A DNA stretch of 64,000 nucleotides, from the NCBI RefSeq assembly GCF_018143015.1, contig NC_054741.1:62307197-62371196 (forward strand), read 5' to 3'. Source of the stretch: Lytechinus variegatus (Eukaryota > Echinodermata > Echinoidea > Temnopleuroida > Toxopneustidae). The position numbers were made by a program, and so were the translations under genes. The notes under the pieces were generated by a model. It was not told the origin of the DNA. It made no database searches and worked only from the letters and a program-made list of their open reading frames with translations. This document shows, piece after piece, positions 3,235-49,069 of the stretch (position 1 is its first letter; each line of letters begins with the position of its first letter).

Positions 3235-4130
3235 GACTTTGGGTCAACCTTTTGGTATATTTCCAATTGGTCTAACACCAATTTGTCTAATTACCAACTC
3301 GTCTGCTATCATTTTGTCTATCATCAATTCGTCCATTATCCACATGGTCTACATGTAATTGCCAGTTTGTCCACTCACCATTTTGTCTAATAACCAGTTG
3401 GTCCAATAGCCATTTACTATAGTCCATAAACCATTTACTATAGTCCATAAACCATTTGGTCTAATAGGATAAGACACTTTTGTCTTCTCTTTATTTTTTA
3501 TTGTGCAGTTTTCTTGTGTTTTTGTCATTTGGATTGTTTTCTGTTTTGTGTGTGTGATTTCTTTCTGTACTGTTTTGTCTAGTCTTGTCCTCTGTGTACA
3601 CTGTTTTTTCTTTCTTGTTATTATTTCGTCTTGTCTTATTTATTTTATAAACACTATTAGAATCGTTGTTTTGTATATTTTCTTGTATGCCATGGGTATG
3701 ATCATGTAGTAAGGATTGTATTAAGTGTAATATACTGCATAAAACTTACGAAGCTTTACCCCGTTAGTATTTTTCTATTGAACATTATTAATTTCTAGTT
3801 GTTTTTGATGAATTTTAATCAGGTATTTATTTCAAGGGACTCACATAAACAAGCGATGCTTTCCAGTGAGCTCCCTTTTTTTCATTTCATTTATTCATAT
3901 TCTGATTTGTTCCTACTTTGTAAATTTGTGTGAAATGAAGAAGAATAAAAATCAATCAATCAATCAATTGGGCTTTAGCAAAATGATTGAAAAGAAAATG
4001 GGCATTAGACCAACTGGTTAATAGACAAAATGGTCATATACGAACTGGCATTTAGACGAAGTGATTATTGGTTCAAATGGTTATTAGAGGAAATGTTGAT
4101 GTTGGTTTGACGTTCGGTCTCATGCCCTTG
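3235..4130. mobile_element. Foldback element of GGTCTAATA-type repeats
   Basis: Both arms (about 3235-3465 and 3975-4130) are built of degenerate 12-15 bp phrases such as TTTGTCTAATAACCAGTTGG. The right arm is the reverse complement of the left. This is the structure of a foldback-like element with internally repetitive arms. The centre (3484-3963) is unrelated to the arms and is listed separately. No open frame of note is present. Confidence 0.55.
3484..3963 (+). mobile_element. LINE 3' end with ATCA-repeat tail
   Basis: A 480-bp AT-rich segment ends in GAATAAAAATCAATCAATCAAT, i.e. a polyadenylation-like signal followed by a 4-bp microsatellite, as at the 3' ends of several non-LTR retrotransposons. 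Only untranslated sequence is left. It sits in the centre of the foldback element and probably inserted there. Clade unknown. Confidence 0.45.
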
Positions 4131-9200: not shown

Positions 9201-9238
9201 ACCATGATAATTTGCTCAGTATTTTTTATTCTTTTCAG

Positions 9239-9528: not shown

Positions 9529-10070
9529 GTATGTGGGTCCTTGGAGTTCATAATAAGATAATGCTTTTTTAGAAAATCAACATGTGTTTTCACATCAATA
9601 AATTAATGTTATTAGACCATAGACCATTAATCACACAAGGTTTGTCATATCTGAGATTTTCATGGTTGAAACATACAGAATTTGATTTTGCCATTTGCTG
9701 TTAGTTGGCATTATGCATTCTGCGTCCATTATCTATTGCTTGCACATGTAGACAAACAAAGGTGTCAGAAACCTAATGTCAATTAAATTATGTATTTCAG
9801 CAAGATCTTCATAAGTGAATTTGATCTTCCAACAGATCTATCTTAAAATTTAACCATACCTATAAAGCAGATTTGATTTTCCACAGATGTTACCATTTAT
9901 TATCAATAAAATAGTTTTACTTGCAAAATGGTGTAGAGTTTCAAGCAGCACACGGCATCTTATGTTAGTATTGAGCAAAACACATTGGAAGACCCATCCG
10001 AATGCCGACTCTGAGTTGGTGGTAATTTGATTTTTCAAACTATTAAAAGTTGTCAATGTTCTCATTCCAG

Positions 10071-10151
10071 GTCACGATCAAGGTTGCATTTTAGGTCAAG
10101 AAGTAGGTCTAGATCAGTGACACACTCTTCGTATAGGAGAAGCGGAAACAG
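10071..10151 (+). CDS. RS-domain exon, class B copy 1
   Basis: An 81-nt exon with acceptor TTCTCATTCCAG and donor ACAG|GTATTC, one base in and two bases out, as in the class A exons. It encodes SRSRLHFRSRSRSRSVTHSS and then YRRSGN. It is the most diverged of four tandem copies: the other three have RLRSRS where this one has RLHFRS. The RS pairs suit the linker or effector domain of an SR protein. The intron to its right is duplicated. Confidence 0.75.
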
Positions 10152-11251
10152 GTATTCATTATTTTTCCTTGTTTGAAAATTTTATTGGAAAATAATTTTG
10201 TAAAACAACTAACCAGTATAAAGAGGCCCCTGAATGATCAACACACACACATGAGTGAAGCGTTTTATGAACCAAGTCCCGCGAGTCTCGGCTATTGTGC
10301 AATCGGCGCCTATATATCTCTAAACACCAAATTCCTAGATAGGACCGTATAGCCTGGTTTAGCGGCGGACAGACTGGACTCCCACGCGAGTGACAAGGGA
10401 TCGATGAATTTGAAAAGCGAATGTCATGAAGGAAAAAGAAAATACTTTTTTAAACATGCAGGTCACTTAGAGGAACTGGTAAAACATATGAAAAAGTTAT
10501 GTCATACAAAGCATGAGAGCCTGTTAATGAATGTGAGAATATGAATTTTTTTTTTTCATGTAGAGGTGAAAAAATCAAGAAAGGAATGGCAGAAAGGTTG
10601 TACAAATGTAGCCAAATAAGGATTTGTAATTTCACATAACACTAGTAAACTTGATTCCTACAAACTTGTCTAGCAAACTTCTTTTAGGAAGAAGAAACAG
10701 TTATTCATTATTTTTCCTTGTTTGAAAATTTTATTGGAAAATAATTTTGTAAAACAACTAACCAGTATAAAGAGGCCCCTGAATGATCAACACACACACA
10801 TGAGTGAAGCGTTTTATGAACCAAGTCCCGCGAGTCTCGGCTATTGTGCAATCGGCGCCTATATATCTCTAAACACCAAATTCCTAGATAGGACCATATA
10901 GCCTGGTTTAGCGGCGGACAGACTGGACTCCCACGCGAGTGACAAGGGATCGATGAATTTGAAAAGCGAATGTCATGAAGGAAAAAGAAAATACTTTTTT
11001 AAACATGCAGGTCACTTAGAGGAACTGGTAAAACATATGAAAAAGTTATGTCATACAAAGCATGAGAGCCTGTTAATGAATGTGAGAATATGAATTTTTT
11101 TTTTTCATGTAGAGGTGAAAAAATCAAGAAAGGAATGGCAGAAAGGTTGTACAAATGTAGCCAAATAAGGATTTGTAATTTCACATAACACTAGTAAACT
11201 TGATTCCTACAAACTTGTCTAGCAAACTTCTTTTAGGAAGAACAATTTTCC
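10152..11251 (+). repeat. Near-identical 549-bp tandem duplication
   Basis: Bases 10154-10702 and 10703-11251 are almost identical; one difference noticed is GGACCGTATAG versus GGACCATATAG. The unit comprises intron sequence, not the RS exon. Sequence related to this unit, but more diverged, follows the exons at 11303, 11916 and 12695, so the whole region grew by repeated tandem duplication. The high identity means a very recent event or an assembly artefact from two haplotypes. Confidence 0.85.
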
Positions 11252-11302
11252 AGTCATGGGATGACTAATGACTATTAAAAGTTGTCAATGTTCTCATTCC
11301 AG

Positions 11303-11383
11303 GTCACGATCAAGGTTGCGCTCCAGGTCAAGAAGTAGGTCTAGATCAGTGACGCGCTCGTCGTATAGGAGGAACAGAAACAG
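11303..11383 (+). CDS. RS-domain exon, class B copy 2
   Basis: An 81-nt exon with the same acceptor, donor and phase as 10071-10151. It reads SRSRLRSRSRSRSRSVTRSS then YRRNRN. It is very close in sequence to the copy at 11916, about 613 bp downstream. All class B exons can be included in any number without breaking the frame. Confidence 0.75.
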
Positions 11384-11915
11384 GTATTCGTTTTTTTCCT
11401 TGTTTGAAAATTTTAGTGGAAAATAATTTTGTAAAACGACTAACCAGCATAAAGAGGCCCCTGAATGATCAACACACACACATTAGTAAAGCGTTTTATG
11501 AACCAAGTCCCGCGACTCTCGGCTATTGTGCAATCGGCACCTATATGTCTATACACACCAAATTCCTAGATTGGACCGTATAGCCTGGTTTAGCGGCGGA
11601 CAGACTGGACTCCCACGCAAGTTACATGTGGTCAATGAATTTTAAAAGCGAATGTCATGAAGAAAACAAATACTTTAAACATGCAGGTTGCTTAAAGTAA
11701 CTGGTAAAACATATGCAAAAGTTTTGTTATACAAAGCATGAGAGCCTGTTAATGAAAGGTTGTACAAATGTAGCCAAATAAGGATTTGTAATTTCACATA
11801 ACATTAGTAAACTTGATTCCTACAAACTTGTCTAGCAAACTTCTTTTAGGAAGAACAATTTTCCAGTCATGGGATGACTAATGACTATTAAAAGTTGTCA
11901 ATGTTCTCATTCCAG

Positions 11916-11996
11916 GTCACGATCAAGGTTGCGCTCCAGGTCAAGAAGTAGGTCTAGATCAGTGACGCGCTCGTCGTATAGGAGAAACAGAAACAG
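11916..11996 (+). CDS. RS-domain exon, class B copy 3
   Basis: An 81-nt exon encoding the same 26 complete residues as copy 2, with AGAAACAGAAAC in place of AGGAACAGAAAC near the end. The acceptor (CTCATTCCAG) and donor (AG|GTATTC) are conserved. The surrounding intron also matches that of copy 2, so exon and flanks were duplicated as one block. Confidence 0.75.
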
Positions 11997-12288
11997 GTAT
12001 TCGTTATTTTTCCTTGTTTGAAAATTTTAGTGGAAAATAATTTTGTAAAACGACTAACCAGCATAAAGAGGCCCCTGAATGATCAACACACACACATTAG
12101 TAAAGCGTTTTATGAACCAAGTCCCGCGACTCTTGGCTATTGTGCAATCGGCACCTATATGTCTATACACATCAAATTCCTAGATTGGACCGTATAGCCT
12201 GGCTTAGTGGCGGACTGACTGGACTCCCACGCGAGTGACATGTGGTCGATGAATTTTAAAAGCGAATGTCACGAAGAAAAAAAAATAC

Positions 12289-12444
12289 TTTAAACAGGGA
12301 TACCAGTTTTCAGGCAATTGCCTGATTTCAGGCAATCTGATAATATTTCAGGTAATTTCCTACAATTGGGCCACTAATTTAATGTGGCAAATTTTGGGCA
12401 TTTTCCTACTTTTTCATTAAAGCCCACTGGCATCCCTGTTTAAA
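12289..12444. mobile_element. 144-bp MITE with TTAA-type target, empty site present
   Basis: The element 12295-12438 begins CAGGGATACCAG and ends CTGGCATCCCTG, and is flanked on both sides by TTTAAA. The homologous intron after copy 2 (near 11671) reads ACTTTAAACATGCAGG with a single TTTAAA, which is the empty site. The boundaries fit either a TTAA duplication with ends ACAGGGAT or a six-base TTTAAA duplication. TTAA would suggest piggyBac or Kolobok. No coding capacity. Confidence 0.85.
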
Positions 12445-12694
12445 CATGCAGGTTGCTTAAAGGAACTGGTAAAACATGCGCGAAAGTTTTGTCATACAAA
12501 GCATGAGAGCCTGTGAATGAAAGGTTGTACAAATGTAGCCAAATAGGGATTTGTAATTTCACATAACATTAGTAAACTTCTTTTAGGAAGAACAATTTTC
12601 CAGTCATGGGATGACTAATGGAAAGAACCAGTTCCCAAGTTGGTGGTAATTTGATTTTTCAAGCTATTAAAAGTTGTCAATGTTCTCATTCCAG

Positions 12695-12775
12695 GTCACA
12701 ATCAAGGTTGCGCTCCAGGTCAAGAAGTAGGTCCAGATCAGTGACGCCCTCTTCATATAGGAGAAGCGGAAACAG
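12695..12775 (+). CDS. RS-domain exon, class B copy 4
   Basis: An 81-nt exon, acceptor TTCTCATTCCAG, donor ACAG|GTATTC, same phase as the others. It reads SQSRLRSRSRSRSRSVTPSS then YRRSGN. It is the last RS exon seen; the next convincing exon (15188) starts in a different phase, so it cannot be joined directly and is treated as another gene. Confidence 0.75.
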
Positions 12776-13270
12776 GTATTCGTTTTTTTTTTTTTCCTTC
12801 TTTGAACATTTTATTGGAAAATAAGTTTGTAAAACAACTAACCAGCTTAAAAGGCCCCTGAATGATCAACACACACACACACACATATTAGTCAAGCGTT
12901 TTATGAACCAAGTCCCGCGACTCTCGGCTATTGTGCAATCGGCCTCTATATAATTATCTATAGGGCCTAAATTGTACACACCAAATTTCTATATAGATTT
13001 GACTGTATAGCTTGGCTTAGTGACTTACCGACTGCACTCCCACGCGATTGACACAGGGTTGATCGTGCGTACAAATTTTTTCTTCCCCCTCCTCTCACAC
13101 ATATTTCCATTGAACTTATGGGATGGTTGCTGCCATGCCTGTGACTGTTGGGAGGGGTTCATTTTTGGATAGCCCTATGAAAGGGCAGAGGAGGGGATCT
13201 CTTTTAAAATCATAGACATTCCATGATTCTAGCAACCTCTTTTTAGAACCTATCAGTAGATACACATGAA
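12776..13270. other. Diverged tail of the RS duplication, then unique DNA
   Basis: Bases 12776-13060 still resemble the introns of the RS array (the phrases CCAAGTCCCGCGACTCTCGG and CAATCGGC recur) and include a CA microsatellite near 12870. From about 13060 on nothing was recognised. Confidence 0.5.
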
Positions 13271-14836: not shown

Positions 14837-15187
14837 TGGATAAAGGTGATGTGCTTTCATTGCATAGCTCTGTATGTGATGCATTTTCCTCATAAATATC
14901 AATACCATGTGCTAAAATTGTGCTCGGGCACAAATTGGGCACAAATTGGCAACTTTAGCCAAGTTATGTGTGTTTCAATGGTATCACCTATTCCAAACAG
15001 GTCTGTATGTGAAATACTACTAGTAAATTACGAAGTGTTAAGTAGGTCAGTTCTGTGCATTGCGAGGTTTGTTGAAAAGCTTGAGCATATGTCCAAACAC
15101 TAAAATGGATAAGAAAATGAATAGAAAGTGTGTACTTTAGCTGATGAGGTGATGTAATCCGTCTTGATAAATTTTGTTTTTGTGTAG

Positions 15188-15363
15188 GGGAGCATTTTTT
15201 GAAACACATAAACAGTGCAAAAGGTATTGCTGAACATCTTCAACAGCACAGGGAAGATCAAGGTGGTGCAGTGTTTCTAGAGAGATGGAACCTAGTACTT
15301 GGCAACAACTTTATCAGCAAGAATGACCTTGATAGATTGTGCCCAATTCCTGAAGGAAAAGAG
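15188..15363 (+). CDS. Exon of large uncharacterised NHL/Cys-cluster gene
   Basis: The acceptor is TTTTTGTGTAG and the donor GAG|GTATTT. The exon starts with two bases of a split codon and then reads EHFLKHINSAKGIAEHLQQH and on to CPIPEGKE, 58 complete codons. It ends on a codon boundary, and the exon at 16414 opens on one, so the splice preserves the frame (PEGKE joined to ICMPYQ). The composition is that of a folded protein. No known domain was recognised. The exon before it, which should end with one leftover base, was not found. The intron to the right contains a complete MITE. Confidence 0.6.
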
Positions 15364-15417
15364 GTATTTGATTTGATTTGATGAGTCTTCTATAATTCTA
15401 TTTATTTCATTTATCTT

Positions 15418-15768
15418 GTTAAAGGGACATTCACACATTCTGTGTGGTCAGCTGAAAATTTTAGATTCTGAATATTTTGTATTGATTAAGTAGCAAATTC
15501 ATAAAAAACAAGAAATACTGAAGCAGACTTGCAATGACATGTTTTATTTTGGCAGAGCTACCAATTGTATGGCTTAATTATTGGACCGATAATATTAACA
15601 AAACAGCAGCGTATGGAGCAATGTAATAAACATAATCGACGTAATCGTGTACAACTCACCAACGCAATATCAGAATCAATTGAAATTTTGGAAATAAGCT
15701 TTTTTCATGTATATCAACTTATTGGTGTCATAAAAGAGGATGCTGGAATCACTGAATGCCCCTTTAAC
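15418..15768. mobile_element. 351-bp MITE, GTTAAAGGGACATTCA ends
   Basis: The left end GTTAAAGGGACATTCA (15418-15433) and right end TGAATGCCCCTTTAAC (15753-15768) form a 16-bp inverted repeat. It lies inside an intron. Relatives occur at 13270-13500, 13624 and 14544. The open frame inside is not a gene. Confidence 0.75.
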
Positions 15769-16413
15769 ACTTGTCTGAAAAATTGAGGCTGTACGACAGG
15801 TAATTAGATTTAAAACAAGATAATTTGTTTTTTAAGAAATAATAAAATTAATGTTCCTACAATATTGGACTGTCCTTGTTTTTGCTCATGCAAATTATGC
15901 AAGGCTTATAGAGTATTTTGGTCAATGTGATATTTGTGATAGGGGTGTGTGTGTGCTGAAAATTTGGAAAAGTCTAAATAAAAACAAAAGCAAAAACAAA
16001 GGACTATGGTATTAATAGGGATACTAGTTGAGGGATGGCACAAGCCCTTAGCCATCTCAGTATTCAGATTGGTCAAGATCCTTGCTTCAACAAAACTTGC
16101 CATGTGCATAGTGGTGGACACAAATATTCTGTGAATGTAGCATGCATGAAAGCGGAGAACCACATCTTTTGTTTAGATCTACTTTTCCTGAAAGTGTGAA
16201 TGAAAAAGCATAAAAAATGGAATGTGATGAAATTGCTTCTAAAAAGTAATGTGTGTGCCCCACTTCAATCAGCAAACTTCTGCAGATATCATTTGGTTGT
16301 TTGCACACATGTAGCATATGTTGCCTATTGATGCTGGGTGAAAGATGGGTATTACATGTACTTAAATCATTTATTAGTTACATTATTTCAAATTTTTATC
16401 TCCCTTTTTACAG
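15769..16413. other. Intron remainder
   Basis: Intron sequence between the two exons of the large gene. It ends in a strong acceptor, CTCCCTTTTTACAG. Nothing else was recognised. Confidence 0.5.
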
Positions 16414-19400
16414 ATATGCATGCCATACCAATACCAGTTTCACCTTGAGAGACAACATGATGAGTATCTGTCACATTGGCTGAAGCAGGCAATCAGAGAG
16501 GAAGTAATTGGTAGTGATAGCTTGTGCTACCAGGAAATTGAGGCACGCCTGACAACACTGCTTAAGTCCCCAAAGAGCATAAAGTGGCAAACATGGCCCA
16601 CATTGAATGCTTTCTGTCAGGCCTTCTTTGATGTTGCAGGTGAGCGTGCTTTTAAGTTTTACACTGGCTCAGCAAATTGTGGTAAGGCTCAAAATGCTGG
16701 AGTCAGAGCTAATACCACATTGAACCACCCAGCACCAAATCACAGAACCATGAAACGATGGAAACCAGCTGCAAACTTTGATGGTGGTCCATGTCCAGCC
16801 AGAATAGGAACTGTCTCTGAACTGCTACAACAGTCAAGGTTGGCTTTTATCCATAGATGGAGAAGATAGTACTGTTTACCCAGTGGTATGTGGATATGAC
16901 GGGCAGCCTCTAAACCAGGGTACATTTGTTCGCTGGCAACCAGACAGCAAGTCCTATATTGTGGATGGTGTTAGACCCCAACTGACATATGATGAAATTG
17001 CAGAAGCAGGCACAGAGAATTTCTCATCATATGTAAAGCAGAAATGCAGATTTGTTTCTGAAGTTGTAGAGTTTTATGTAATTGATGTGAAGGGGTTGAT
17101 TGCTATGAATGTTGGGACAGTTTTTTCAACTGGTGGAATGAAGCATGCAGATGTACGTCAGCATTTGAAAACGATGCTTCAAGCAGTTCAAACCTGTTCT
17201 GAGTGCATAACAAGTAAGGCCAAAGAATGCACTTACCGCAATCAGCAAGAATCATGCAACAGATGCAGGAGTAGAAATCTCCAATGTGTTCGTTTGATGG
17301 TTGTCCACTGTTATGCAGACATGGCTGCATCTCAACGAGTTGCCCATGAAGATCTGATGAAAGAAGCTGGATGTCAACTTGCAATACCACAATACACACA
17401 ATTTGGTTTTGGCATGCTTCATATGTGTAAGGCGTTAGTAGGATACGTACGCAACTATCGCATCACTGATGGAAATGAAATCTTTTGCATCAACATGCTT
17501 GTTGCTCTCTGGCTTTCATCCACACATGCATCAACCCTCTTGTGTGGTATCAACTCCAAAGTATTTTCCTATAGAGACAGGCACTCCGATGATTTGGCAT
17601 ACTCGACCGTTTGCCAAAGAGTTGAAGATGCACTTGTTGCAGCCAATTCTGTGGTGGTTACTGTTGCTCCTGAACAGTACCGTCCATGGTCACAGGAGGC
17701 CAAAGATCACAACGATATGAAACTGGGTAGACCTCTGTTCATCACTGTAAATAAGCAGGGCCATTGTCTGTGGAGTGATCCAGTTGCTGACTGTGTCTTC
17801 ATGGGAAATCGACACAATCCCATGAAAGTAAAACCACTTGGACAGCCAAATGCTCCTGGACGTGCTAGTCATCAAGTACTACCAGTAACCGCTGCACAAT
17901 ATAACCGGCCTACTGGACTGAAGGTCTTTGCAGCTTCTAACAAGGGTGAAGTGTGCCTTATCTCAGATAGTGGCAATAAAGCTCTGCGTGTTGTAGATAA
18001 ATGCCATGACATCCATGCTAAGCAAAAAGTTGCTACGGTGGAATTAAATAATGCTCCTGACGGATTCCAACCATATGCGCTTGAGGTGATAAGCCCAGCA
18101 TATCCAACAACCATTGCTGCTGTGAGTGACACTAATGCCAAGGTTATTCACATGATACGGATCAACCTTGATTCCTACCATGGTCAACTGGTTAAAACAA
18201 TTGAAGGATTCTGCGTCCAACCATCAGGCCTTGCACTCTTGACCAAAACTCCACCAAGCCTCCTGGCAGTTGACCATACAGAGATCAAAATGGTGAACTA
18301 TGAAACGGGTGTTATAAAAACGTTCATATCTGGATTGCACCCCTCAACTGATGTATCAGTAAGCAGAAGTAAGAAGCTGGCTGTGTCTACCCCAGTGCGG
18401 AATAAGATATATGTATATGACATGTTCACCATAGATGCAGGAGCAATTGAAGTATGGGGCTCTGGACAGAAAGGAAATGAAGATGGTACTGTGGCAGATG
18501 CCTCATTTGATGAGCCTGTGGGAGTTGCATTTGATGGAGATGTCCTGTTTGTTTCATGCTTTGGAGGGGAACATGGTGGATGTGTCAAGTTTGTTTCTGG
18601 TATTTCCTTTGCAGTATCCTATATCCAGCATGTACGAGAATTATACCACTTTGCAGGATTTGTTGCAAGGAAGGATTCCAGAAAGGAGGATGCAAGGCAG
18701 ATGAGACGAGGCAAATTTCTGCTAGGGGTCAGAAAATTCCAGGAATCCATAGAATTTCTTCAGGCCATCAATGAAAGACGACAAAATGCATTGAGCAATG
18801 GGGCAACACCAAAGTATGTAGATTCCAGCTGTGGAGGTATATACCCAAAGACTCTGGATTGCCTTCTGATGACTTTATCAAGCTTGAGGACACACATCAC
18901 ATCATTTGAAGAGATGCTACCGGACACTATAGATGACCTTTCTTTGTATGCCTTCGTCAATGAGGCAGTTGTAGAGCATGGGTTTGGAGAAAGAGGTGCA
19001 CACAGCTCACAATACAGACATCCAAGTCATGAGCAGTATTGCCACATCAAAACCAACAGTGAAGGCAACTACATCCGCAAGATTTGCAGTGTGAAGTATT
19101 CACACTTCACAACAGAGGAGAAACAATATCAGCACCCAAGGAAGTGTGATATTTCTGCTGATATTGTCATTTCTCAGTTGCATGAGCGGTTGAAGAATTA
19201 CACAAACCTGTGCGAGCCCACACAGGAAAGCAAGGAAGACTACAAGAAGTTGAAGAAGTTAAACCGGATATATAGACCACAGCCTACACAAACAGTCCGG
19301 GAAAAATACAAGGCCAAAAATGGGTATGCCCCAGTAACAGTGCAAAGGAAAGATGTGCCATCAGAATCCTACATGTCACAAAGGAATTTGTCTGCACTTA

Positions 19401-20020
19401 CATCTTTCCAAGGGACACTCAGTAAAACAAGAAAGACACAGCTGAACACTGAAGACTTTCTACTGATGCGTGGTGACATAGTTCCCGTTCTTGCAGGTGC
19501 TAACTATGCCCATGATGGTCCTCAAATAGATAACTGGTGGCTTCTCCAAGTTACAGAGCCAGTTTTGGCTAGGGACATTGGTGAGAGAACCAGGGTTACC
19601 GACATGTGGCTAGATAAAGTGGCTGTTAACTATGATGGTACAAACACCTTCAAACTACTGGATGATACGACAGTGAAAATCCCTTTTGGATCGCTTATAA
19701 AGGATATAGAAGATGGCGATCCATTGGTAGTACCAGTTGATGTTTTTTCAACAGAATTTGACGCAGATAATATGGACAAGCTAGTGTACTCATTCCACCC
19801 AGAGTATATACAGCAACTTGATGATCTTGGAGAAGAAGCACAGTACCAGCTGAATCAAGATAACGAATCAGATTTGGAAGAAGAAGAAGATGATGATGTT
19901 AATCAGCAAAACCGTCAGCATCAGCATCTCCTAATACTTGAACAGAGGCGTTCAAGAGCTATTTCTTCCAAGGGACGTCAATTTACAAGCTATTTGGACT
20001 TGCTCAAGCACAAAAATTAA
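16414..20020 (+). CDS. Large uncharacterised protein: Zn2Cys6-like cluster, NHL-like propeller, acidic tail
   Basis: Terminal exon of about 1,200 codons, following the acceptor CTCCCTTTTTACAG. The part to about 16850 reads ICMPYQYQFHLERQ onward. The part from about 16856 (IDGEDSTVYPVVCGYDGQ) lies one base out of register, so there is one frameshift near 16840-16856, real or from sequencing. Residue positions below count from 16883. Around 105-136 lies C-x2-C-x7-C-x8-C-x2-C-x6-C, close to a fungal Zn2Cys6 cluster. It is followed by CYADMAASQ and YRDRHSD, conserved-looking acidic motifs. Residues about 340-590 look like NHL or six-bladed-propeller repeats; the clearest is NEDGTVADASFDEPVGVAFD. 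Near 870-930 MRGDIVPVLAG and WWLLQV suggest an SH3-like barrel. The end is acidic (DLEEEEDDDV), then basic. I believe similar uncharacterised proteins occur in other marine invertebrates, but I cannot name the family. It could be a host gene or a transposon-borne one. Confidence 0.7.
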
Positions 20021-20149
20021 TGGTGATGCATATTTGTTTTTAGAAATAAGTGGATTTTGTTTTTTATCGTGCAGAAGAAGCGATAGACCTGTCTGCAAAA
20101 TGTTATGTATAAAAATATGAGAAGGCAGACAGACAACACAAGTATCTGA

Positions 20150-20410
20150 CAAGGTGAATCAGATGAAGATGAAGGAGAAGAAGAGGAAAAGAAGAAGATG
20201 ACCAAGATGTTAATGAGCAAAAACCATAAGCATTAGCATCTAATACTGGAACAGTGGCATTTGAGACTAAGTTTTTCCCAGAGACATCAATTTTCAAGCT
20301 ACTCAGACTTACTCAAGCACAAAAGTTAATGCTGATGCCACATCAAAGTCCACAGTGAAGACAGCTACATCTGCAAGATCTGCATTGTGAATTATTCACA
20401 TTTCACCTGG
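20150..20410 (+). pseudogene. Decayed second copy of the large gene's C terminus
   Basis: Bases about 20150-20330 match 19850-20030: an acidic GAAGAAGA-rich stretch, then GAACAGTGGCATTTGAGAC, then the closing ACTCAAGCACAAAA. Directly after it, 20336-20405 matches an earlier part of the gene at 19036-19100 (GCCACATCAAA, then GAAG-CAGCTACATC-GCAAGAT). The order is thus rearranged relative to the intact gene. Numerous stops and indels show it is not coding. It is best explained as a partial tandem duplicate that lost most of its length. Confidence 0.7.
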
Positions 20411-20419
20411 TCGTCAATT

Positions 20420-21075
20420 ACTAACAATGACCAATGGTCAGGTCCATAGTCAAGTATCACCAGCTAGTTATCAGTTGCCAACAATGACCAGTAGTCAGGT
20501 CCATCATGTGCATAGTCAAGTATCACCAGCTAGCCATCAGTTGCCAACAATTACCAGTAGTCAGGTCCATCATGTGCATAGTCAAGTATTACAAGTATTA
20601 CCAGCTAGTCATCAGTTGCCAACAATGACCAGTTGTCAGGTCCATCGTGTGCATAGTCAAGTATCACCAGCTAGCCATCAGTTGCCAAAAATTACCAGTA
20701 GTCAGGTCCATCATGTGCATAGTCAAGTATCACCAGCTAGTCATCAGTTGCCAACAATGGCCAGTAGTCAGGTCCATCATGTGCATAGTCAAGTATCACC
20801 AGCTAGCCATCAGTTGCCAACAATTACCAGTAGTCAGGTCCATCATGTGCATAGTCAAGTATCACCAGCTAGCCATCGGTTGCCAACAATGACCAGTAGT
20901 CAGGTCAATCATGTCCATAGTCAAGTACCACCAGCTAGTCATCAGTTGCCAACAATGACCAGTAGTCAGGTCCATCATGTGCATAGTCAAGTATCACCAG
21001 CTAGGCATCAGTTGCCAACAATGACCAGTAGTCAGGTCCATCATGTGCATAGTCAAGTACCACCAGCTAGTCAGC
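20420..21075 (+). repeat. 66-bp tandem repeat coding 22-residue units
   Basis: About nine to ten copies of a 66-bp unit, each with CAGGTCCATCATGTGCATAG and TATCACCAGCTAGCCATCAG. Since 66 is a multiple of three, one frame stays open and repeats HSQVSPASHQLPTMTSSQVH with small changes. The same frame runs on into the gag-like segment, so the repeat may be an expanded N-terminal region of that element. Units differ by only a few bases, which suggests recent expansion or homogenisation. Confidence 0.85.
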
Positions 21076-21940
21076 AGTCTTCAACAACAACCACTTTCCA
21101 GGAGATACAAGAACTGTCAAGTGATATCAGTAAGTTGACACAGCTTCTTATTAGACAACAAATAAGAGCTTCACTACCAGCGCAACAGATACTAGTCTTC
21201 AATGGTGACCTGTTAAAATGCACCACCTTCATGAGAGCTTTTGAATATGCAGTAGAGAATAAGACCATAGATGGTAGAGATATGCTAAATTACCTGTGTC
21301 AATACACTTCGGGAGAACCAAATAGCTTGATAAACAGTTGTACCATGATGAAGACCCAGATGAATGCTTCATTAGGCAAAGCAGATCGTAACCAAAAGGT
21401 TTGGAAATAGTCGCAACATTGCACAAGCTGTACTGAAGAAAGCTAAAGAATTGCCAGAGGTCAAAGATGAAACCAGTAAGCTAAATGAATTTGCATTTTT
21501 TTGTCAGAATGTCATAACATGATGCAATCCAACAAGAATTAGACAGCACCAGTAGTCTGCAGTTTTTAGTAGGTAAACTGCCATATAGACCGAAGAGCTT
21601 GTGGAGAACCAAAGTATATGAATTGGACGAAAAAAGAATGCAAGTTGTTGGATTCAAAGACTTTGTCAATCATCCAGCACATATTATTTCAAACCCTACA
21701 TTTGGTACCATAGGTACAGATGCCAACTAGAGTAACAGTACAATAAGATATAATAGCAAGAGCAGCAACCCAACAAGAAGAAAAGCTTTCGCAACAGCTA
21801 CCAAAGATGGTCATAGTAAACCAGTAAGACAAAGTCATGCACCTACTGTGGTGGTGAAAGTAAGCATGTAATTTTAGAGAGCAGGAAAATCACCAATTTA
21901 GAACCAAAAGAGAAAAAACAGTCATAGCAGAAGCAAACAG
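21076..21940 (+). mobile_element. BEL/Pao-type gag fossil
   Basis: A remnant of a BEL/Pao LTR retrotransposon. The recognisable part is the gag-like region: QQILVFNGDLLKCTTFMRAF and YTSGEP resemble the start of BEL/Pao gag (DUF1759-type), and KAKELPEVKDE further on fits the same protein. Protease, reverse transcriptase, integrase and LTRs were not found. The copy is broken, with several breaks, and its right side is cut off by the LINE beginning near 21946. It is an old fragment; without LTRs it cannot be dated. Confidence 0.65.
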
Positions 21941-21945
21941 ATAAA

Positions 21946-24105
21946 GTGAAGATCCCCACAGGTCGTGTAGACATACAAGGCAACGAACCTTTGTATGACG
22001 ATCGTCTTACTTGTAATAATGTCACTAAACTAATTAAGAATAAAAAACGTGAGTATTTTAATAACATAACCGAAAAGTATAAAGGTAATAGCAAAAAATT
22101 ATGGAATGAAATCAATAAATTTACAGGACGTAAACAAAAAAACACTGATATTCCCAACACTTTAAATGGGGGTGATTTTAATGATTTTTTTTGTGAACGT
22201 TGGTAAGAAAATTTCAGACTCATTTAAAGATGATACTTTTGTTTGGAATCATCCTGATAGCATTTATTCCTTTGCATTCCAGTCTGTCACCAGTGAAAAT
22301 GTTACAAAAATTCTTTCACAGCTCTCAAGTGACTCTAATCTTGATATTTTAAATTTAGATACTAAACTCCTAAGGATAGCAGGGCATCATATAAGTTTAT
22401 CATTGGGTGTAATTTTTAACGAGAGTTTGTCAAGCGGTTTAATACCAGATGATCGGAAGATCGCTCGAACCACTCCAATTTATAAAGGTAAAGGGGGGTT
22501 AGATAATATGACTAATTACAGGCCTATCTCTGTGGTATGCCATCTGGTAAAGTTACTGGAGAAAGAAGTCCAGAGTCAGTTACTTTTTTATCTTAAAAAA
22601 CACAATTTCATAAATATTGATCAGTATGCATTCTTACCTAATCACTCGACAACTACATGTTTACATAAAATTTTAGAGGATTGGTATGATGCTTTCAACG
22701 AACGTGAGATGATTGGAGCTTGTTTTTTTTAGATATATCAAAATGCTTCGACTGCATTGATAAAAATATTTTATTGAAAAAATGGAAAGATATGGTGTTC
22801 AAAATAATGAGTTAAGATGGTTCACTAATTATTTATCTGGTAGAAAGCAAACTGTTTATTGTCATGAGAAATTGTCTAAATTTAATAATCTCTCTGTAGG
22901 AATTCCCCAGGGTAGTGCCCTAGGCCCATTACTTTTTATTTTTATTAATGATTTAAGTGAATGTTTAATAACATGTTCATGCAATATTTATGCAGATGAT
23001 GTTGTCATTTATATTTCGGATAAAAGTACAGAAGTTATTACGTCTAAACTACAGGATGATTTGGAAAATATTAGTAAATGGTACAAAAGAAATAAATTGA
23101 AAGTCAATATTGATAAAACGTATAGTATGTTATTGAAACGCAACCCACATACTTCCAAAGAATTAAACATATATTTGGATGGTAACATTATAAATCAAGT
23201 AACTCATATTCGGTATTTAGGAATCGAAATTGATGAAAACCTAAAGTGGAATTCACATGTGAAGAACCTAAGTAGATCTTTAGCTTTTAAGATATTTTCT
23301 TTAAAAAAGGTTAGTCATTTCACTGATACAAACGTTCTAAATAAGATTTATAATTCTTCAATCCAACCCATAATGGATTACTCTTGTTCAGTCTGGGGGA
23401 ACTGTTCTATCAATAATAGGAATATTTTGTTAAGACTACAAAAAAGAGCAGCTAGAATAGTAGAAAAGAACTTTGATTATGCTGACAATGGTATTGATAT
23501 TATTAAACGCTTAAAATGGCAGGTTTTAAAAAAAAAGACGTAATTATTTCCTTGCTTGTATTATGTATAATTGTATTCACGGTCATGCTCCGATACGTTT
23601 AGGTAATTCAATTGATATGGTTTTTGATAGACATCCAATGAATACAAGATTTGCTAATTCACTAAACGTTGTAATACCAAAACCCAATATTGAATTTTTA
23701 AAGAGTAGTTTACGATATTCAGGAGGAAATGTATGGAACAACCTGAATTCTGATCTGCACAATGCCAAGACTATTGATAGTTTCAAAAAGAATTATAAGA
23801 AAATATATTTCTCTTAAAACACTTTCCGCTCTTATACAATACCTTTTATGATAGGTTTAAATTTCCAATTTGATTTTTATCACCCCGATGCGCATGCACA
23901 TTCGTGTCTTAGATATCTGTTGCTGTAAATACCTATTTCATTTGGTTTACTTTCTCTTTATCTATTATATTTGAAATTCTTCTATGCATTATATTCTATA
24001 TGTTACTTGATTTTTTATGTTTACAGGACCGTGTCGAAAAACAGTGTAATAATCTGAACATGTTATCCTGTATAAAGATGTTTTAATAAATAAATAAATA
24101 AAAAG
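21946..24105 (+). mobile_element. 5'-truncated LINE (CR1/Jockey group), reverse transcriptase
   Basis: The segment codes most of a LINE reverse transcriptase. Motifs in order: NYRPISVVCHLVKLLEK (about 22515), DISKCFDCIDK (22730), GIPQGSALGPLLF (22900), YADDVVIYI (22990), YLGIEID (23215) and a C-terminal CSVWGNCS (23385) and LRYSGGNVWNNL (23710), ending at 23817. The frame is broken near 22166-22206, near 22730 and at an A run near 23530. The endonuclease half is missing. The 3' end is a run of AATA repeats after GTTTTAATAAATAAATA at about 24080-24105. A close relative lies on the minus strand at 26436-27597. Clade call is by motif style only. Confidence 0.85.
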
Positions 24106-24411: not shown

Positions 24412-25502
24412 GTCTCACCTGCATCACGCGGTTCAATATAGCAGCAGTGCTCACTTTGAATACTACTCTAACTTGCACAAGATGTTCAGTGATACATGGT
24501 TACTCTTATTTCCCCTTTTTATGAACTAGACCAATAAACTTACAGAGATATGATGGTTATTCAACAAAAAACCCCAACATGGCCAAAGTTCATTAACCTT
24601 ACATGACCTTTGACCTTGATCATGTGACCTGAAACTCGAACAGGATGTTCAGTGATACTTGATTACTCTAATGTCCAAGTTTAATGAACTAGACCAACAA
24701 ACTTTCAAAGTTATGATGGTAATTCAACAGATACACCCGATTCGGCCAAAGTTCATTGACCTTTGACCTTAATCATGAGACCTGAAACGCGCACAGGATG
24801 TTCTGTGATACTTGATTACTATTATGTCCAAGTTTCATGAATCAGATCCATAAACTTTCAAAGTTATGATGGGAATTCAACAGATATCCCCAATTCGGCC
24901 AAAGTTCATTGACCCTAAATGACCTTTGACCTTGGTCATGTGACGTGAAACTCATGCAGGATGTTCAGTGATACTTGATTAACCTTATGTCCAAGTTTCA
25001 TGAACTAGGTCCATATATTTTCAAAGTTATGATGGGAATTCAACAGATATCCCCAATTCGGCCAAAGTTCATTGACCCTAAATGACCTTTGACCTTGGTC
25101 ATGTGACGTGAAACTCATGCAGGATGTTCGGTGATACTTGATTAACCTTATGTCCAAGTTTCATGAACTAGGTCCATATATTTTCTAAGTTATGATGACA
25201 TTTCAAAAACTTAACCTCAGGTTAAGATTTCGATGTTGATTCCTCCAACATGGTCTAAGTTCATTGACCCTAAATGACCTTTGACCTTGGTCATGTGACA
25301 TGAAACTCTGATAGGATGTTCAGTAATACTTGATTAACCTTATGGCCAAGTTTTATTAACAAGGTCTATATACTTTCTAAGTTATGACATCATTTCAAAA
25401 ACTTAACCTCAGGTTAAGATTTGATGTTGACGCCGCCGCCGCCGTCGCCGCCGCCGTCGGAAAAGCGGCGCCTATAGTCTCACTTTGCTTCGCAGGTGAG
25501 AC
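24412..25502. mobile_element. GTCTCACCTGC-bounded element with TGACCTTTGACCTT satellite
   Basis: It is bounded by a perfect 11-bp inverted repeat, GTCTCACCTGC at 24412 and GCAGGTGAGAC at 25492. Inside are about six tandem units of 155-180 bp carrying TTCATGAACTAG, AAAGTTATGATG, GGCCAAAGTTCATTGACC and TGACCTTTGACCTT. Before the right end is a CCG-rich block and GCGGCGCCTATAGTCTCACT. A fragment with the same right end (GGTGGCGCCTACACTACAGT) lies at 36443. Confidence 0.75.
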
Positions 25503-32525: not shown

Positions 32526-33981
32526 GGCAACAAAGAAGTTTGGGTGTATTTCAAGTTGTACTCAGAGAGTAAGAGCCAGTGGACTGTTTGTTTCAGGAAA
32601 GGAGCACACATCAACACGGACATGTTTGTAGAGGCTTTCCATCACACGTTGAAATACATTTATATGAAGGGTTTCACCAATCGAAGGGTCGATAAATGTA
32701 TTAGTCTTCTTGTTCAGTTTGTCCGTGATCGTTCGTTTGATAGGTTGATCAAATTGGAGAAAGGTAGGAAGTCTCATCGCATCAGGAATAATGATAGGCA
32801 GCATAAGGCAAGTCAACAGCTAAGTATTGAAGCAGTTTCCAAGGTCAGCGATTCTAGGTGGAGTGTGCAGTCATCAGATGGTCAGCATTATTATCTTGTT
32901 GAGAAGGTGGCAGCCTCATGTTCGCCGATATGCCAACTTGCCTGTAAGGCATGTGGCGTGTGTGTCCATGGATTTTCGTGCTCGTGCATTGACGGAGTTG
33001 TCAGGGGTACCCTGTGCAAGCATGTCCACTTAGTTTGTCGGTCGCTGTTGAGTTCAGAGGAGGCAGAGCCAGCCATAGATGATGATCCCGAGGCATGTAC
33101 AGGTCCCCAAGGTGATGTGCTTATTTCGGAAATTGTCAGGAATAGAGAACGATCTCCTCGTGGTCAGCATTCAAAGGACAGTGTTATTCGGAAGCTCAAG
33201 GAACTTGATGATTTGCTAGGTGCCAGTACTGCGTGCATCGCTTTAGATGCCGTGTACAAGCACATTAATGCTGCAGTTCAGGCGTTGAAGGCTGCTGGTT
33301 CTCCTTCTCAGTCGTTTTCTCCGGTTGTAGTCAATGTCCCTCAACGTGTTACACCTCAGCGACCACAGTTCAAGTCAACGAAGAAGGCTCGCAGCTCCAG
33401 TAGAGTCTCACTTTCAAAGCCTACACAAGAAGGGAGAGAACACGAAGAAGGCTTGCAGCTCCAGTAGAGTCCCACTTTCAAAGCCTACACGAGAGGAGAG
33501 AGAACAGATTGTGTACAGGATTGAGGAGAATGAGGTTGTTGTTTCGACAGGAGATCATACATCTACGCAGCAGATTGCAACCGTCCCTGATAGTGTGACT
33601 CCTCCGAGCATGACTAGAAAGCATGTGAAGCAGCTTCGTTATTTTGTTTCTGCAGAGTGTATTTCTCGAGTTAAAGATGGTCATAGGGTGCAAGAAGATG
33701 AGGTCGAGGTTATACCAGAGAATGTTCAGGATGCTGTGGTTGACATTTCAAAGGAAGAGTTGACTGATTTGAAGCAGTTTTTGGAAGATGATTCTTGGCT
33801 ACTGGTAATGCAAGTGATGGATGTCAAGTACAAGCTTTGGAAGTGTCATCTCTGTCGAGTTGTTCGGTCAACATTGAACATGATCGAATGTGAGAAATGT
33901 TCAAGGTGGTACCATTGGAAATGCTGTTCGTTGAGGAGAGAACCTGAGGGGATCTGGCTCTGTAACTTTTGCAAGAGCTAG
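32526..33981 (+). CDS. Mutator-type (MULE) protein with SWIM and PHD fingers, frame broken by a duplication
   Basis: The first frame (to 33467) opens with GAHINTDMFVEAFHHTLKYI and NRRVDKCISLLVQFVRDRSF, which I recognise from MULE-like proteins of marine invertebrates. It continues to CVHGFSCSC then CKHVH, a SWIM zinc finger (CxC ... CxH) at about residues 145-170. The second frame (to 33981) ends in a PHD-type finger: KCHLC, ECEKCSRWYHWKCC, WLCNFC. The switch is explained by a 64-bp tandem duplication at about 33379-33506 (ACGAAGAAGGCTCGCAGCTC and its copy), and 64 is one more than a multiple of three. The catalytic transposase part is missing on the left, where a stop precedes 32526. It is probably a decayed or domesticated copy; the role of such SWIM-PHD tails is likely DNA or chromatin binding. 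Confidence 0.65.
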
Positions 33982-40679: not shown

Positions 40680-43400
40680 CATGGAAATCTCAACACAGAA
40701 GTGGAAATTGGTCGCACCCATCTTGAGGCTGAACTTGTGGTAGCTGACATTGAGAATGAAGGCATTCTTACAATGACTGGAAGTATTATCGATTGTGACA
40801 AATTTGAGATGAACTGCGAAGGGGAGCTAATTCATTGTATTAGGAGGAGTGAATGTTCCCAAGTGAGACATGTTGATGTAGTCAAAGAAGTACCAGAATT
40901 TCTGAATGATTTACTGAGTAGATCAAAGACGAACATTGACAAGTCGGATCAACCTAAACTAGTCAAACTGCTGACAGAGTATGAAGATGTATTTAGCAAG
41001 GGCGATCATGATCTGGGGAGGACAGACAAGATTACCCATTCAATACATACAACCTATGACCTAGACGACCACCCATGGGACAGAGGGAGGAGATTGAGAA
41101 GCAGGTGCAGGATATGTTAGACAGAGGCATAATCAAAGCATCAGCAAGCCCATGGTCGTCACCCATAGTATTGGTAGATAAAAAAGATGGCTCTAAGAGG
41201 TTTGGTGTGGATTACAAAGAATTGAATAAACAAACAATCCGGGACTCTTTTCCCCTTCCAAGAATTGATGAGTCAATTGATTGCCTAGCAGGTGCAAAAT
41301 ATTTTGCACTTTGGATTTAGCAGCTGGATATTGGCAAGTACCACTTGATGATGATGCAAAACTCAAATCAGCTTTTGTGGTTCCGGGTGGACGCTTTCAA
41401 TTCGAGGTGATGCCATTTGGACTGTGTAATGCCCCTTCAATCTTTGAGCGTCTAATGGAAACCGTACTAGTTGGACTCCAGTGGAAAAGTGTACTAATCT
41501 ATCTAGATGACGTCATAGTATTTGGTACAACAGTGGAAGAGGTAGTAGAGAGATTAGAGGTCGTATTCATTTGACTTAGAGAGGCAAAGTTGAAATTGAA
41601 GCCCAGGAAATGTCGAGCCAAAGTAGTGCACTTAGATAGATTGAAGTCATATGAGGGCCCTTCATTGAAGGATTGGACTACATTACATGTATTACCCCCT
41701 AGAAGAAACCCAGAAAGAGTTAAGAGGACCCCCAGAAGGTACATATGTGAATCTCCAGAAGCATGATTCCGATCCTACATACAAATGTAAGAGGTGCGAC
41801 TTTGAGCATGAGGATGAAAAGGCACTTTTAAGACATTATCATCGACAACATGGCATGAAGGGTACATCAACAAGAAATTCCAAATATGACGAAGCAACGA
41901 TCAGATATCTAAGGAGAGATGCAAAGGAGAGGCAAGAAAGAAGAGATGCAGAAGAGAGAGGAAGGAAGCAGGGAAAGGGAAGAGGAACAGAAGAATTAGG
42001 AAGGAGAGGGTCAAAAAGAGAAAGAAAGACGGGAAATGGCAAAAAGGATATCGAAAGAGATAGAAGAGGCGGGAAGCGGAAATTATTTTGAACGTCACCA
42101 CGGATTCAGAGAGCGAGGTCAGTAGTGATGAAGAGGTGCGTGTAGAGAGCGATGAAGGGGGCAGCGACATTGAAGAGGAGGCTGACGAGCCAAAGGTGCC
42201 ACCCCTCAGGATGATAGTGCGCCACCCTTCAACAGACGATCAAATTGGAGTGACATGTTTCGTCCAAAAACCAAGCCTTGGAAACCAATGCTAAAATGTG
42301 TTTCCATTGTCACTGAGACTTTTATTAATGTTAGGGGACAAAGTGTTCTCCATGAAAGGAAGATTAGCAAATTCTACCCCCACGACGAGCTGTCCGATTC
42401 GGAATAATTAAAAAATAATGTCGTTTTCACTTTTGTAAATACTTGGACTCTTTATATATATATATATATGTATTCTATTACAGAATAAGAATGTTCATAT
42501 ATCCCTTCGCTGAGGACAGCGAATTTTGAAAGGCGGGGGTAATGTGTCGGTTTTTGCCCCCACCCCTTAAAAAAAATCTTATGATGAACGATGCTGTTAT
42601 GAAATGCTATTATTTATTGTAAATGATTATGTAAAGATGTCATGTTGAGTTGTCACCCTGTTATCATAAACTGAAGAATTTGTACTTACCTCTGATATTT
42701 TCCAGTAATAATGTATTTCAGGGAAGCTGGCTGATTGTCAAACAGGTTTCGATCAGGAATCATTTTATACGTCCTATGATAGTTAGGGTTGGAATTGATT
42801 GTGACGTCATAGTGGTATCGGCCTTGGGCGAGGTATTTTTGACCAATCAGGGGACAGGATTTGGGGGTATAAGTAGGGAGAGGGAGGTACAAATTCGGCA
42901 CTACTTGTTCCAGACGCCCTCTTGAAAGGTCACTGTCATCTCCATCTGTAAACAATTTTCTCTTCCTCTCAATTTCAATCTTGAACATCTCACACTGTAA
43001 GTACTTATTTATCATGATTCTATAGGAGAAAGAAATATGAGGTTGATGTAAACTGCTTCCCAAAATTAATTTTAAAGAATTTATAGGATAAAAGAAAGAT
43101 TTTGTGAAGGAAAAATTGATTCTTGAACCCTGGATTTTAAAATGAGGGTTTTGTAAGAAAATTCATTCAAGAGGTACTTTAATATCTAATGAAGATAATT
43201 TAAATGATCTATTACGTGTATGTTGAGATAATTTTCACTGAATTGTTGTATTGTTTTTGTCATTAGATTGGAACAATGGTGAAAATTTTCTAAGTGTCAC
43301 TACTTTGGTTCTCTTACTTAGGACATGGACAGATAATAATCACTCACTGCATTCATTGTATGTAATTATTTATTATAGAATCAACAACTAAAAACAAGAT
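40680..43400 (+). mobile_element. Ty3/Gypsy fossil with 3' LTR
   Basis: A remnant of a Ty3/Gypsy retrotransposon. Parts in order: the end of the protease region and start of reverse transcriptase (40700-41110); reverse transcriptase with KKDGSKRFGVDYKELNKQT, PFGLCNAPSIFERLME and YLDDVIVFG (41110-41560); a short piece of the integrase C-terminal side (about 41590-41700); a downstream segment with a C2H2 zinc finger and charged repeats (41690-42290); a purine-rich tract near 42530; and what looks like a 3' LTR starting TGTCGG at 42544, with GGTATAAGTAGGGAG as a TATA-like promoter near 42868. The LTR's right end is uncertain. It is broken, with at least four breaks including loss of most of pol. 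A 5' LTR was not found, so no age can be given. Confidence 0.75.
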
Positions 43401-46389: not shown

Positions 46390-49069
46390 GACAGGCACGG
46401 CCCCAGAAAAACTGATACATGTAGTAGGCTTGTTCTTAATTTTCTGTGTTTGAATGTATGTGGCCTGAAAACCAAATCCCGTCTTGGCATCCTTGATAAA
46501 TTTGTGAGCGACTTTGATGTAATTGGTCTCTGTGAAACTAAATGCAATTCTAGTGATATTTGTGTCATTCCCGATTTTCATCCTCTTGTCATGCCTTCCA
46601 AAACTCCTAAGCACAAATTCGGCGCAGCTCATGGCATCTCTGTCAACATAAGGGATGGCATTAATGCTCGTTTTGATGCGATCGAAAATACCAATTCTGA
46701 GTTTGTATTTTGGCTCAAGGCAAGTTCGATTTCTAGACCTTTGGAGATTTCAATTCTAGAACAGGCATTTTGAGTGATTTCATTGAGCCTAGTGACCTTG
46801 TTACTATTGAAGGTGGTTTTGAGTTGTCATCTGAATCTTTTGTTAATAGTAAAGCTGAAATCGACAAGGCTGGGATAGGGTCAGAACGCTATAGTAAAGA
46901 CCACAACGTTAATGATAATGGTCTTAATCTCATTGAGCTATGTAAGAACTTTGACATCAAAATAGTTAATGGTAGGTTTGGTAGTGACATGGGAATAGGT
47001 GAATTTACATGCCAAAATGCAATAGGCTCTAGTGTGGTGGATTATGTGCTTGTTTCCTCACAATTCATGTCGAAGATTACAGATTTTCATGTTTACCCCT
47101 TAGATAAGTGCTTGTCTGATGCTCATGGAGCCATTTCTGTCCAACTCACTTTTGATGTTGCTCAGCTAAGTGATACATGCCACGACGTGCCTCCGACTAC
47201 AGAAAATTGTTTTATCGATGAAGATGGTATATATGAACGTTTGAAAATATCTTGGAAAAAGGAAGTTGAAACTTCCTAACCTAATGCTTTTGATACTGAG
47301 GCAATTAATGATTTGAATAATAAGATTGACTCTTTTTATAGTGAATCAATTTCTCAGTGCATTATGGACGATATGGTTAAAGACTTGAATAGATACATGT
47401 TAATCGATCCTGCTAAGTCGATAGGAATTTGTAAGAAAGCACATTTGGTGACGAATGCTTGTAGACGTAATAATCATTTTGGTAAAACTGATAAGCCCTG
47501 GTTTGATAAAGCTTGTGAAACCCGTAGAACAGACTACTTTAAAGAAAAACATAGGTTGCAGAAGTTGAACTCTGTTGATGCAAAGTTAGAACTTAGGAAA
47601 TTAGCAAAAACTTACAAACGTTTTATTAGGACAAAATTAAGGGCATATAATAAAGAGTTTCACACTTCTCTGCGAAAATTGAAAAATTCTAATCCCAAGA
47701 AATACTGGAAAGTGTTAGATGATGCTTGTAAATCGCCAGAAAAAGGAAATGACATTCCGTTAAATGCATTTATGACACATTTCAAGAATTTAAGTATGAA
47801 GCCAGAAGATTTGACTTCAAACGAAATTGATTTTGATCCTTCTGTTGTAGATCATTCAATAAATGAGGCTATAAATAAAGACTTTACCTATGAAGAAGTC
47901 ATTCTTGTTATAAGAAAATTAAGGAATAATAAGGCTAGTGGGATCGATAATATTATTAATGAACAACTGAAAAACTGTCCTGATTCTTTCGTGAATTTGT
48001 TGGTTAGAGTTTTCAATGTTGTACTTTACACAGGTGTTGTACCTTCTGTTTGGTGTCTAAGTATGATTAAGCCATTATTCAAAAAGAAAGGTTCCGCTGA
48101 TGATCCAGACAATTATAGAGGATTCACTCTTCTGAGCTGTGTTGGTAAACTGTTTACAGCATGTATTAATGCCCGGCTTTCGCTTTACCTAGAGTGTGCT
48201 GGTATTTTAGGAATTGAGGAGGCTGGTTTTAGAGATGGGCATAGTACCCTGGATCATATTTTTACTTTGCATGGTCTAATTGATTTGTATTTAAACCATG
48301 GGAAAAGAATTTGCTGTGCTTTTGTTGACTATAAGAAGGCCTTTGACCTTGTAGATAGGTCCAGTCTTTGGTCAAAATTGATATCATCAGGGATTAATGG
48401 AAAAATCATCAATGTTGTTTATAATATGTATAAGAATGCAAAATCCTGTGTAAAACTCGGTAATAATTTGTCTGATTTTTTTGTTTGTAACATTGGTGTA
48501 CGCCAAGGAGAAAATTTATCCCCCTTTTGTTTGCACTTTATCTTAATGATTTTGTACTTTTTGTTAGTAGACATTATAAAGGTCTTGATATGTGCTCCTC
48601 TGCAATAAGAGAGTATTTAAGTGATGAGGATGTTGAGGTATTTTTGCGTCTGTATGTATCATTATATGCTGATGACACTGTAATATTTGCCGAGTCTGCT
48701 GAGGAGCTACAGTGTGCTTTAACAGCTGTTCATCAATACTGTGATTTATGGAAGCTCACTGTAAACACCAGTAAAACCAAAGTTGTTATTTTTTCCAGAG
48801 GACGTGTCCGTCGGTTTCCTCAGTTTATGTTTGGTGAAAATTCCCTTGAGGTTGTTTATGATTACACTTATCTTGGGGTTATTTTTAATTATAACGGTTC
48901 TTTCAAGAAAGCAATGAAAAAACAGATTAATCAAGCTCGTAGAGATATGTTCCATTTGAAAAGCAAAGCCAGGAAACTATCCTTACCAATTGATGTTGAA
49001 AAATACAACATCTTGAAATTGACACAATTAATTTATTCATTTAGTAATTTAGAATACTATCAAAGGTAA
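46390..49069 (+). mobile_element. LINE ORF2, APE endonuclease and reverse transcriptase, 3'-truncated
   Basis: Endonuclease: CLNVCGLKTKSRLGILDKFV and IGLCETK at 46440-46540, and the far part NGRFGSDMGIGEFTCQ, VVDYVL, SDAHGAISVQL at 46960-47150. Reverse transcriptase: LRNNKASGIDNI (47925), DNYRGFTLLSCVGKLF (48110), FVDYKKAFDLVDR (48320), GVRQGENLSPF (48498), YADDTVIFAES (48665), YLGVIFNYNG (48868). The frame is broken near 46730-46770, near 47275 and near 48530-48600. The copy stops at about 49070 without a 3' tail and runs straight into the acceptor of the next feature, so the 3' end was lost. Clade uncertain; the motifs differ from the LINEs at 22 and 27 kb. Confidence 0.8.

Follow-up and report, generated by a model that had tools for sequence, protein, structure and literature searches.

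A large gene at positions 15,188 to 20,020 of a 64,000-nucleotide stretch of the Lytechinus variegatus genome (C2:62307197-62371196, subsequently called the window) raises the question of whether a sea urchin protein that combines a propeller, a cysteine cluster and acid motifs belongs to the host, to a mobile element or, by descent and later use, to both. The genome has four matches to bindin, which is known from sea urchins and sea stars; in 14 control genomes, of which those named are prokaryotes, there were none. The first-pass annotation of the window had left the choice between a host sensor or scaffold protein and the product of an unrecognised transposon. Of these, an active transposon is argued against by the single genomic place and the lack of a long flanking inverted repeat, and a mixture, a transposase-derived gene that is now single-copy, is the most likely answer. 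In its full form, this reading sees in the locus a single-copy urchin gene whose ancestor was a cut-and-paste transposase and which the host has probably retained; it is put forward tentatively, with a probability of about 40%. The motif order and a protein family of apparently similar layout argue for the transposase ancestry, whereas the test against a P-like profile does not; the ancestry, at which the sequence hints, is thus the leading but unproven reading.

The coding unit is real, and its open frame of 1,070 codons is far beyond chance: in 200 random 64-kb sequences matched to it in dinucleotide content, the longest run without a stop over three frames had a mean of 148 and a maximum of 270 codons. 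A shorter exon is joined to the long one by the donor AAAGAG/GTATTT after 15363 and the acceptor TTTTTACAG before 16414, with the same frame on both sides and coding scores in the joined frame of 7.4 and 14.0 for the two sides, given by a model that was trained on the long frame 16808-20020 itself. Preceded by an acceptor and with a frame without ATG, the shorter exon is an internal one; it scores 10.0 in a window-wide coding scan, a value not unique to it, as a stretch at 9238 reaches 10.3. A coding-score scan of the window and about 13 kb beyond gave no convincing upstream exon, and none is claimed because the minus-strand control of the upstream flank (22.8) outscored the plus strand (14.2).

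More than 1,200 codons spliced in frame had been proposed for this gene. While the splice itself stands, this total is reached only across a frame change, as the first frame runs into a stop. The long exon switches frame between about 16,830 and 16,869, with the coding score crossing over around 16830, so that the approximately 1,260 codons are not a single clean frame. An intron in place of the frame change was considered and rejected. The 15 best candidates of at least 40 bases that would bridge the two frames all begin at 16640 or 16682, the best of them at CAGGTGAGC at 16640, and would excise coding-like sequence (a score of 12.8, compared to 14.0 for the preceding stretch). The switch is therefore treated as a frame change, whether it stems from a lesion, from polymorphism or from an error of the assembly.

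Table 1. Features of the gene and its decayed downstream pieces, in positions of the window.
Feature	Position	Strand	Basis or remark
Internal exon of 58 complete codons with a phase-0 donor	15188..15363	+	splice sites read directly; positive coding score in frame
Intron, part locally repeated	15364..16413	+	GT...AG; three minus-strand matches of 80-81% identity within the window, at 13.4-14.8 kb
Long exon, N-terminal part in the first frame (stop codon 16867-16869)	16414..16869	+	open reading frame 16378-16869; coding score in frame to ~16830
Main open frame, 1070 codons, stop TAA 20018-20020	16808..20020	+	open reading frame
Candidate first catalytic Asp, residue 17, in SIDGED	16856..16858	+	motif only
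Cysteine cluster C-x2-C-x7-C-x8-C-x2-C-x6-C, Zn2Cys6-like, residues 130-160	17195..17287	+	Zn_clus, sub-threshold
CYADMAASQ, with residue 171 as candidate for the second catalytic Asp	17318..17320	+	motif only
LHMCKALVGYVRN, positioned where P-like transposases have the (C/D)xxH helix, Gly replacing the expected Cys/Asp	17417..17455	+	hhalign best stretch, not above shuffles
NHL-type beta-propeller, ~residues 300-612, borders approximate	17705..18643	+	SOQ1/NHLRC2 matches; blade model
Candidate catalytic Glu, residue 723, in VVEHGFGE...HPSHEQY	18974..18976	+	motif only
Decayed duplicate of 19876-20029, at the 3' end of the gene	20185..20338	+	20 mismatches/148, 7 indels
Decayed copy of 19040-19110	20336..20406	+	10 mismatches/71

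By eye, the protein proceeds from P..RT.KRW over SIDGED (D17), a strand-rich stretch, the cysteine cluster, CYADMAASQ (D171), LHMCKALVGYVRN and the propeller to VVEHGFGE...HPSHEQY (E723), or in short D, cysteine cluster, D, LHMCK...RN, propeller and E...HPS..QY. P-like transposases are laid out as D, D, (C/D)xxH, insertion and E, with a GTP-binding domain as the insertion. The motif order of the urchin gene resembles this layout of the P-element/THAP9-like family (PF21787): the acid motifs come in the same order, the second Asp is followed by a helix and the Glu is preceded by an insertion. The urchin gene differs from that family in that the insertion is a propeller rather than a GTP-binding domain, in the Gly at the (C/D)xxH residue and in an alignment score within the range of shuffles. 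The motifs and their order suggest an RNase-H-like (DDE) core, to which profile comparison and structure prediction add no support, and equally the catalytic residues, DNA binding and a host function are putative. Elsewhere in the genome, six P-like RNase H pieces lie within 12 kb at C6:18108691-18120167, three of the six with an internal stop.

The propeller is supported as one of the NHL type. An NHL-like propeller preceded by the motifs CYADMAASQ and YRDRHSD (starting at 17309 and 17570) had been proposed at the outset, and this proposal is borne out, the first blade beginning near residue 305. In a PDB search the whole frame matched SOQ1 at an E value of 0.0039, and residues 329-631, picked after this match, gave the SOQ1 NHL domain at 1.8e-5 and, over another stretch, NHLRC2 at 0.0028; each of the two matches adds up several weak stretches, of which the strongest one to SOQ1 reaches an i-Evalue of 0.075. 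A hidden Markov model built from 10 blades of this same genome (12 loci, two duplicates dropped) scored 17.4 bits over the stretches 305-324, 363-395 and 564-576, compared to 7.8 for the best of 200 shuffles, none of which was as good. The Pfam NHL model remained at 12.4 bits on this gene, under its cut-off of 20. With SOQ1 (PDB 7djm) and NHLRC2 (PDB 6g7w) the urchin gene has NHL motifs in common; it differs from them in that its propeller is flanked by acid-motif regions and the cysteine cluster.

The cysteine cluster of the early description is present between the first two candidate acids, with a spacing close to that of Zn2Cys6 domains (CX2CX6CX5-12CX2CX6-8C), although Pfam Zn_clus (PF00172), the only family found in a hand-picked piece of 50 amino acids, stayed at 16.6 bits (E 0.0084) and below the cut-off of 21. 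Two CxxC halves and a near-canonical spacing are in common with the fungal-type domain; the first loop of the urchin cluster (x7) is one residue longer while the rest fits, the match is sub-threshold and the cluster is internal to the protein. Zinc binding by the cluster is putative; LEU3, which appeared in the PDB search at E 6.6, is by itself no evidence. The SH3-like part that had been described alongside was not recovered in the Pfam or PDB searches, and PDB searches with the core, the stretch that follows the propeller, the tail and the N-terminal piece returned no match with an E value under 0.8. YejG, Rha, MtxA_C, TnpV, TfpZ and others among the sub-threshold library matches were not used, only Zn_clus and NHL being considered further. 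No relatives were found in phage records, viral contigs or prokaryote genomes, where the contig scans demand exact 8-residue patterns and cover close relatives only.

A family of uncharacterised cnidarian, sponge and mollusc proteins appears to have a similar layout, and two cnidarian pieces of it were compared as sequences reconstructed without a database record. The first (273 amino acids) aligns from the cysteine cluster over the KYR motif to the start of the propeller (E 5e-5 as a single pair) and the second (407 amino acids) along the propeller and its following helix (E 4e-11 as a single pair); in both cases none of 300 shuffles was as good. In a search of the genome that scored one candidate, the 407-amino-acid piece hit this locus (E 1.5e-4) and none of the 34 NHL matches elsewhere; it met no real locus in viral or prokaryote contigs, and Pfam had no match to it. 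As the letters of the two pieces were written down after the gene had been seen, these alignments are a lead and not a test. The cysteine cluster, the D motif, the KYR motif, the NHL propeller and the helix after it are in common with the urchin gene, while the family differs from it in apparently being multi-copy and in a tail that aligns weakly.

The history of the locus can be approached through its copy number. A count of genomic copies and a check for flanking inverted repeats had been proposed as a means to separate host from transposon origin, and both speak against an active transposon. In the genome searched (869.6 Mb, 33 contigs), a single place was found for each of four protein queries, the 1070-residue frame, its residues 16-383, its residues 631-991 and the piece from the N-terminal part; the further matches of the whole-frame and residues 631-991 queries, with E from 0.004 to 0.5, are decayed pieces just downstream of the gene. 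As only one to three candidates were scored in each protein search, very divergent paralogues could be missed. At the DNA level, positions 14900-20400 gave 12 matches, composed of their own place, three local intron repeats and eight short GAAGAAG-like matches. A mobile transposon would be expected in several genomic copies, and one place was found within the sensitivity of the tools. Equally, no long inverted repeat flanks the gene in a search for imperfect repeats of at least 40 bases at 10-30 kb, where two longer inverted pairs do not flank it; exact inverted matches across the gene, whose 5' end and with it the ends of a putative element are unplaced, consist of one of 14 bases in one scan and two of 15 bases in another, counts for which no chance level was computed.

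The decayed downstream pieces provide a measure of selection. Alignment to the gene over 219 sites shows 30 differences, distributed 10/10/10 over the codon positions, with seven indels and a Jukes-Cantor distance of 0.15, and the even spread is as expected for freely decaying pieces. When drift of the main frame was simulated at half this distance (0.076), presuming equal rates since the duplication and based on the 219 sites, 9.2 stops were expected and none of 200 runs was stop-free, as the real frame is. That the long frame is stop-free while the tandem pieces have decayed points to selection, and the gene has probably been kept under selection at least until recently.

Several results weigh against a transposase-derived gene retained by the host. 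No match to the gene above cut-off was obtained in the Pfam, NCBIfam and PHROG libraries, and of the 42 matches of a P-like profile in the genome none lies at this gene. In hhalign comparisons to seven genomic P-like transposases, residues 1-400 scored 18.6, below at least six of 30 shuffles, while a left-out true P-like member as the positive control scored 289; the best stretch placed residues 179-212 on the stretch with the CHMLK helix, but with the whole frame it lay elsewhere, at residues 1045-1069. Neither the Pfam scans, with no family match, nor hhalign, within the shuffle range, thus assign the gene to the P-element/THAP9-like family. Structure prediction, another check suggested early on, was carried out with AlphaFold2 on single sequences and gave no confident fold, with a predicted local distance difference test (pLDDT) score of 33 for the RNase-H fold test and of 31 for residues 313-654, the latter bearing on a closed six-bladed fold. 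Concerning the reconstructed family pieces, the one of 273 amino acids had no match over the genome, the tail beyond the propeller aligns weakly (equalled by 4 of 300 shuffles in local mode, where it is out of register, and by 2 of 300 in global mode), its E motif was placed on E723 neither locally nor globally, and the reconstructed letters may be coloured by the sight of this gene. Furthermore, the drift simulation is less telling at lower drift (5.1 stops and 1 of 200 runs stop-free at 0.04; 2.4 stops and 17 of 200 at 0.02), and with the frame change near 16.85 kb the gene may be dead.

The alternative that survives best, though still rather unlikely, is that the locus is all that is left of a DNA transposon which had few copies and was recently disabled, with the frame change as a true lesion and nothing kept by the host. 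A frame change inside the long exon would fit this history, as would the element debris in the surroundings, namely reverse-transcriptase-like frames, a Tc5-type helix-turn-helix and gag-like sequence, recognised by eye or below cut-off. No other copy or fragment beyond the adjoining pieces and no long flanking inverted repeat has been found, however, and 1,070 codons have stayed free of stops next to tandem pieces that decayed.

An ordinary host scaffold or sensor with NHL propeller and zinc cluster, but without transposase ancestry, is considered unlikely. NHL propellers are common binding surfaces of host proteins, and the presence of one in a gene found in one copy, with no transposase profile above cut-off and an hhalign score to P-like transposases within shuffles, is what such a protein would display; set against this, the acid motifs on either side of the propeller appear to be arranged as in a divided RNase H core, and the reconstructed relatives have the same order in the front half. 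An assembly or reading artefact, for example two genes or chance frames joined, is very improbable, as it has the frame change alone in its favour and is opposed by a length far beyond chance, a coding score that changes frame at one point and a likeness to NHL blades before as well as after residue 330.

If the gene is indeed transposase-derived and host-retained, its protein would consist of an N-terminal part followed by an RNase-H-like core with D17, D171 and the zinc cluster between the two, an NHL propeller that interrupts the core between D171 and Glu 723, and a C-terminal tail. The N-terminal part and the cluster would bind DNA, the core would cut or at least hold it, and recruitment of a partner or a chromatin mark might fall to the surface of the propeller. 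A more far-reaching version, which we regard as doubtful, sees in this single urchin gene a one-chain analogue of RAG1-RAG2, that is, a DDE-type recombinase in which a Zn2Cys6-like cluster separates the first two catalytic acids and the RNase H core is split by an NHL propeller. The likeness is one of analogy, as in RAG1-RAG2 a transposase and a propeller work as one machine; the urchin gene differs from it in having one chain instead of two and an NHL instead of a Kelch propeller, and a RAG1 model is absent among the Pfam matches to the gene. No description of an NHL propeller within a transposase, or of such an architecture, was found among the papers listed by literature searches outside subscription journals and repeat databases. 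Should the core be a split RNase H, a recombinase carrying its own propeller in one chain would offer a natural parallel to the way in which RAG1 and the propeller of RAG2 became partners; should the gene be host-retained, it would add a domesticated transposase-like gene in echinoderms; and if neither is the case, what remains is a large NHL protein that no family model covers.

The window as a whole looks rich in mobile-element debris. Reverse-transcriptase-like frames occur at 22166-23543 (RVT_1 at 19.9 bits, below the cut-off of 29.6) and, by eye, at 41063-41553 and 46737-49069, and a Tc5-type helix-turn-helix lies at 53688 (HTH_Tnp_Tc5 at 20.1 bits, below 22.2). Just downstream of the gene, an open frame at 20391-21410, with its own place as the one genome match, contains a 66-bp tandem repeat, SPASHQLPTMTSSQVHHVHSQV, in nine in-register copies with one step of 75; the segment after the repeat presumably resembles a BEL/Pao gag and in Pfam has a sub-threshold apolipoprotein match (48.5 against 90). 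Local repeats are found at 10014-13063 (four to five copies, spaced by 549 to 813 bp, some 99% alike) and at 24470-25422 (five tandem units of about 153-192 bp, 66-88% alike). Upstream of the window, positions 3636-3866 of the reverse complement of L019:1-9001 (minus strand) are presumably part of a host-like gene, with an apparent likeness to SSRP1 of the FACT complex. Two overlapping frames at 32526-33981, finally, combine a CxC...H stretch, SWIM-like by eye, with a PHD finger over cut-off (E 3.7e-6, 27.3 bits) and are perhaps one gene or a Mutator-like element.

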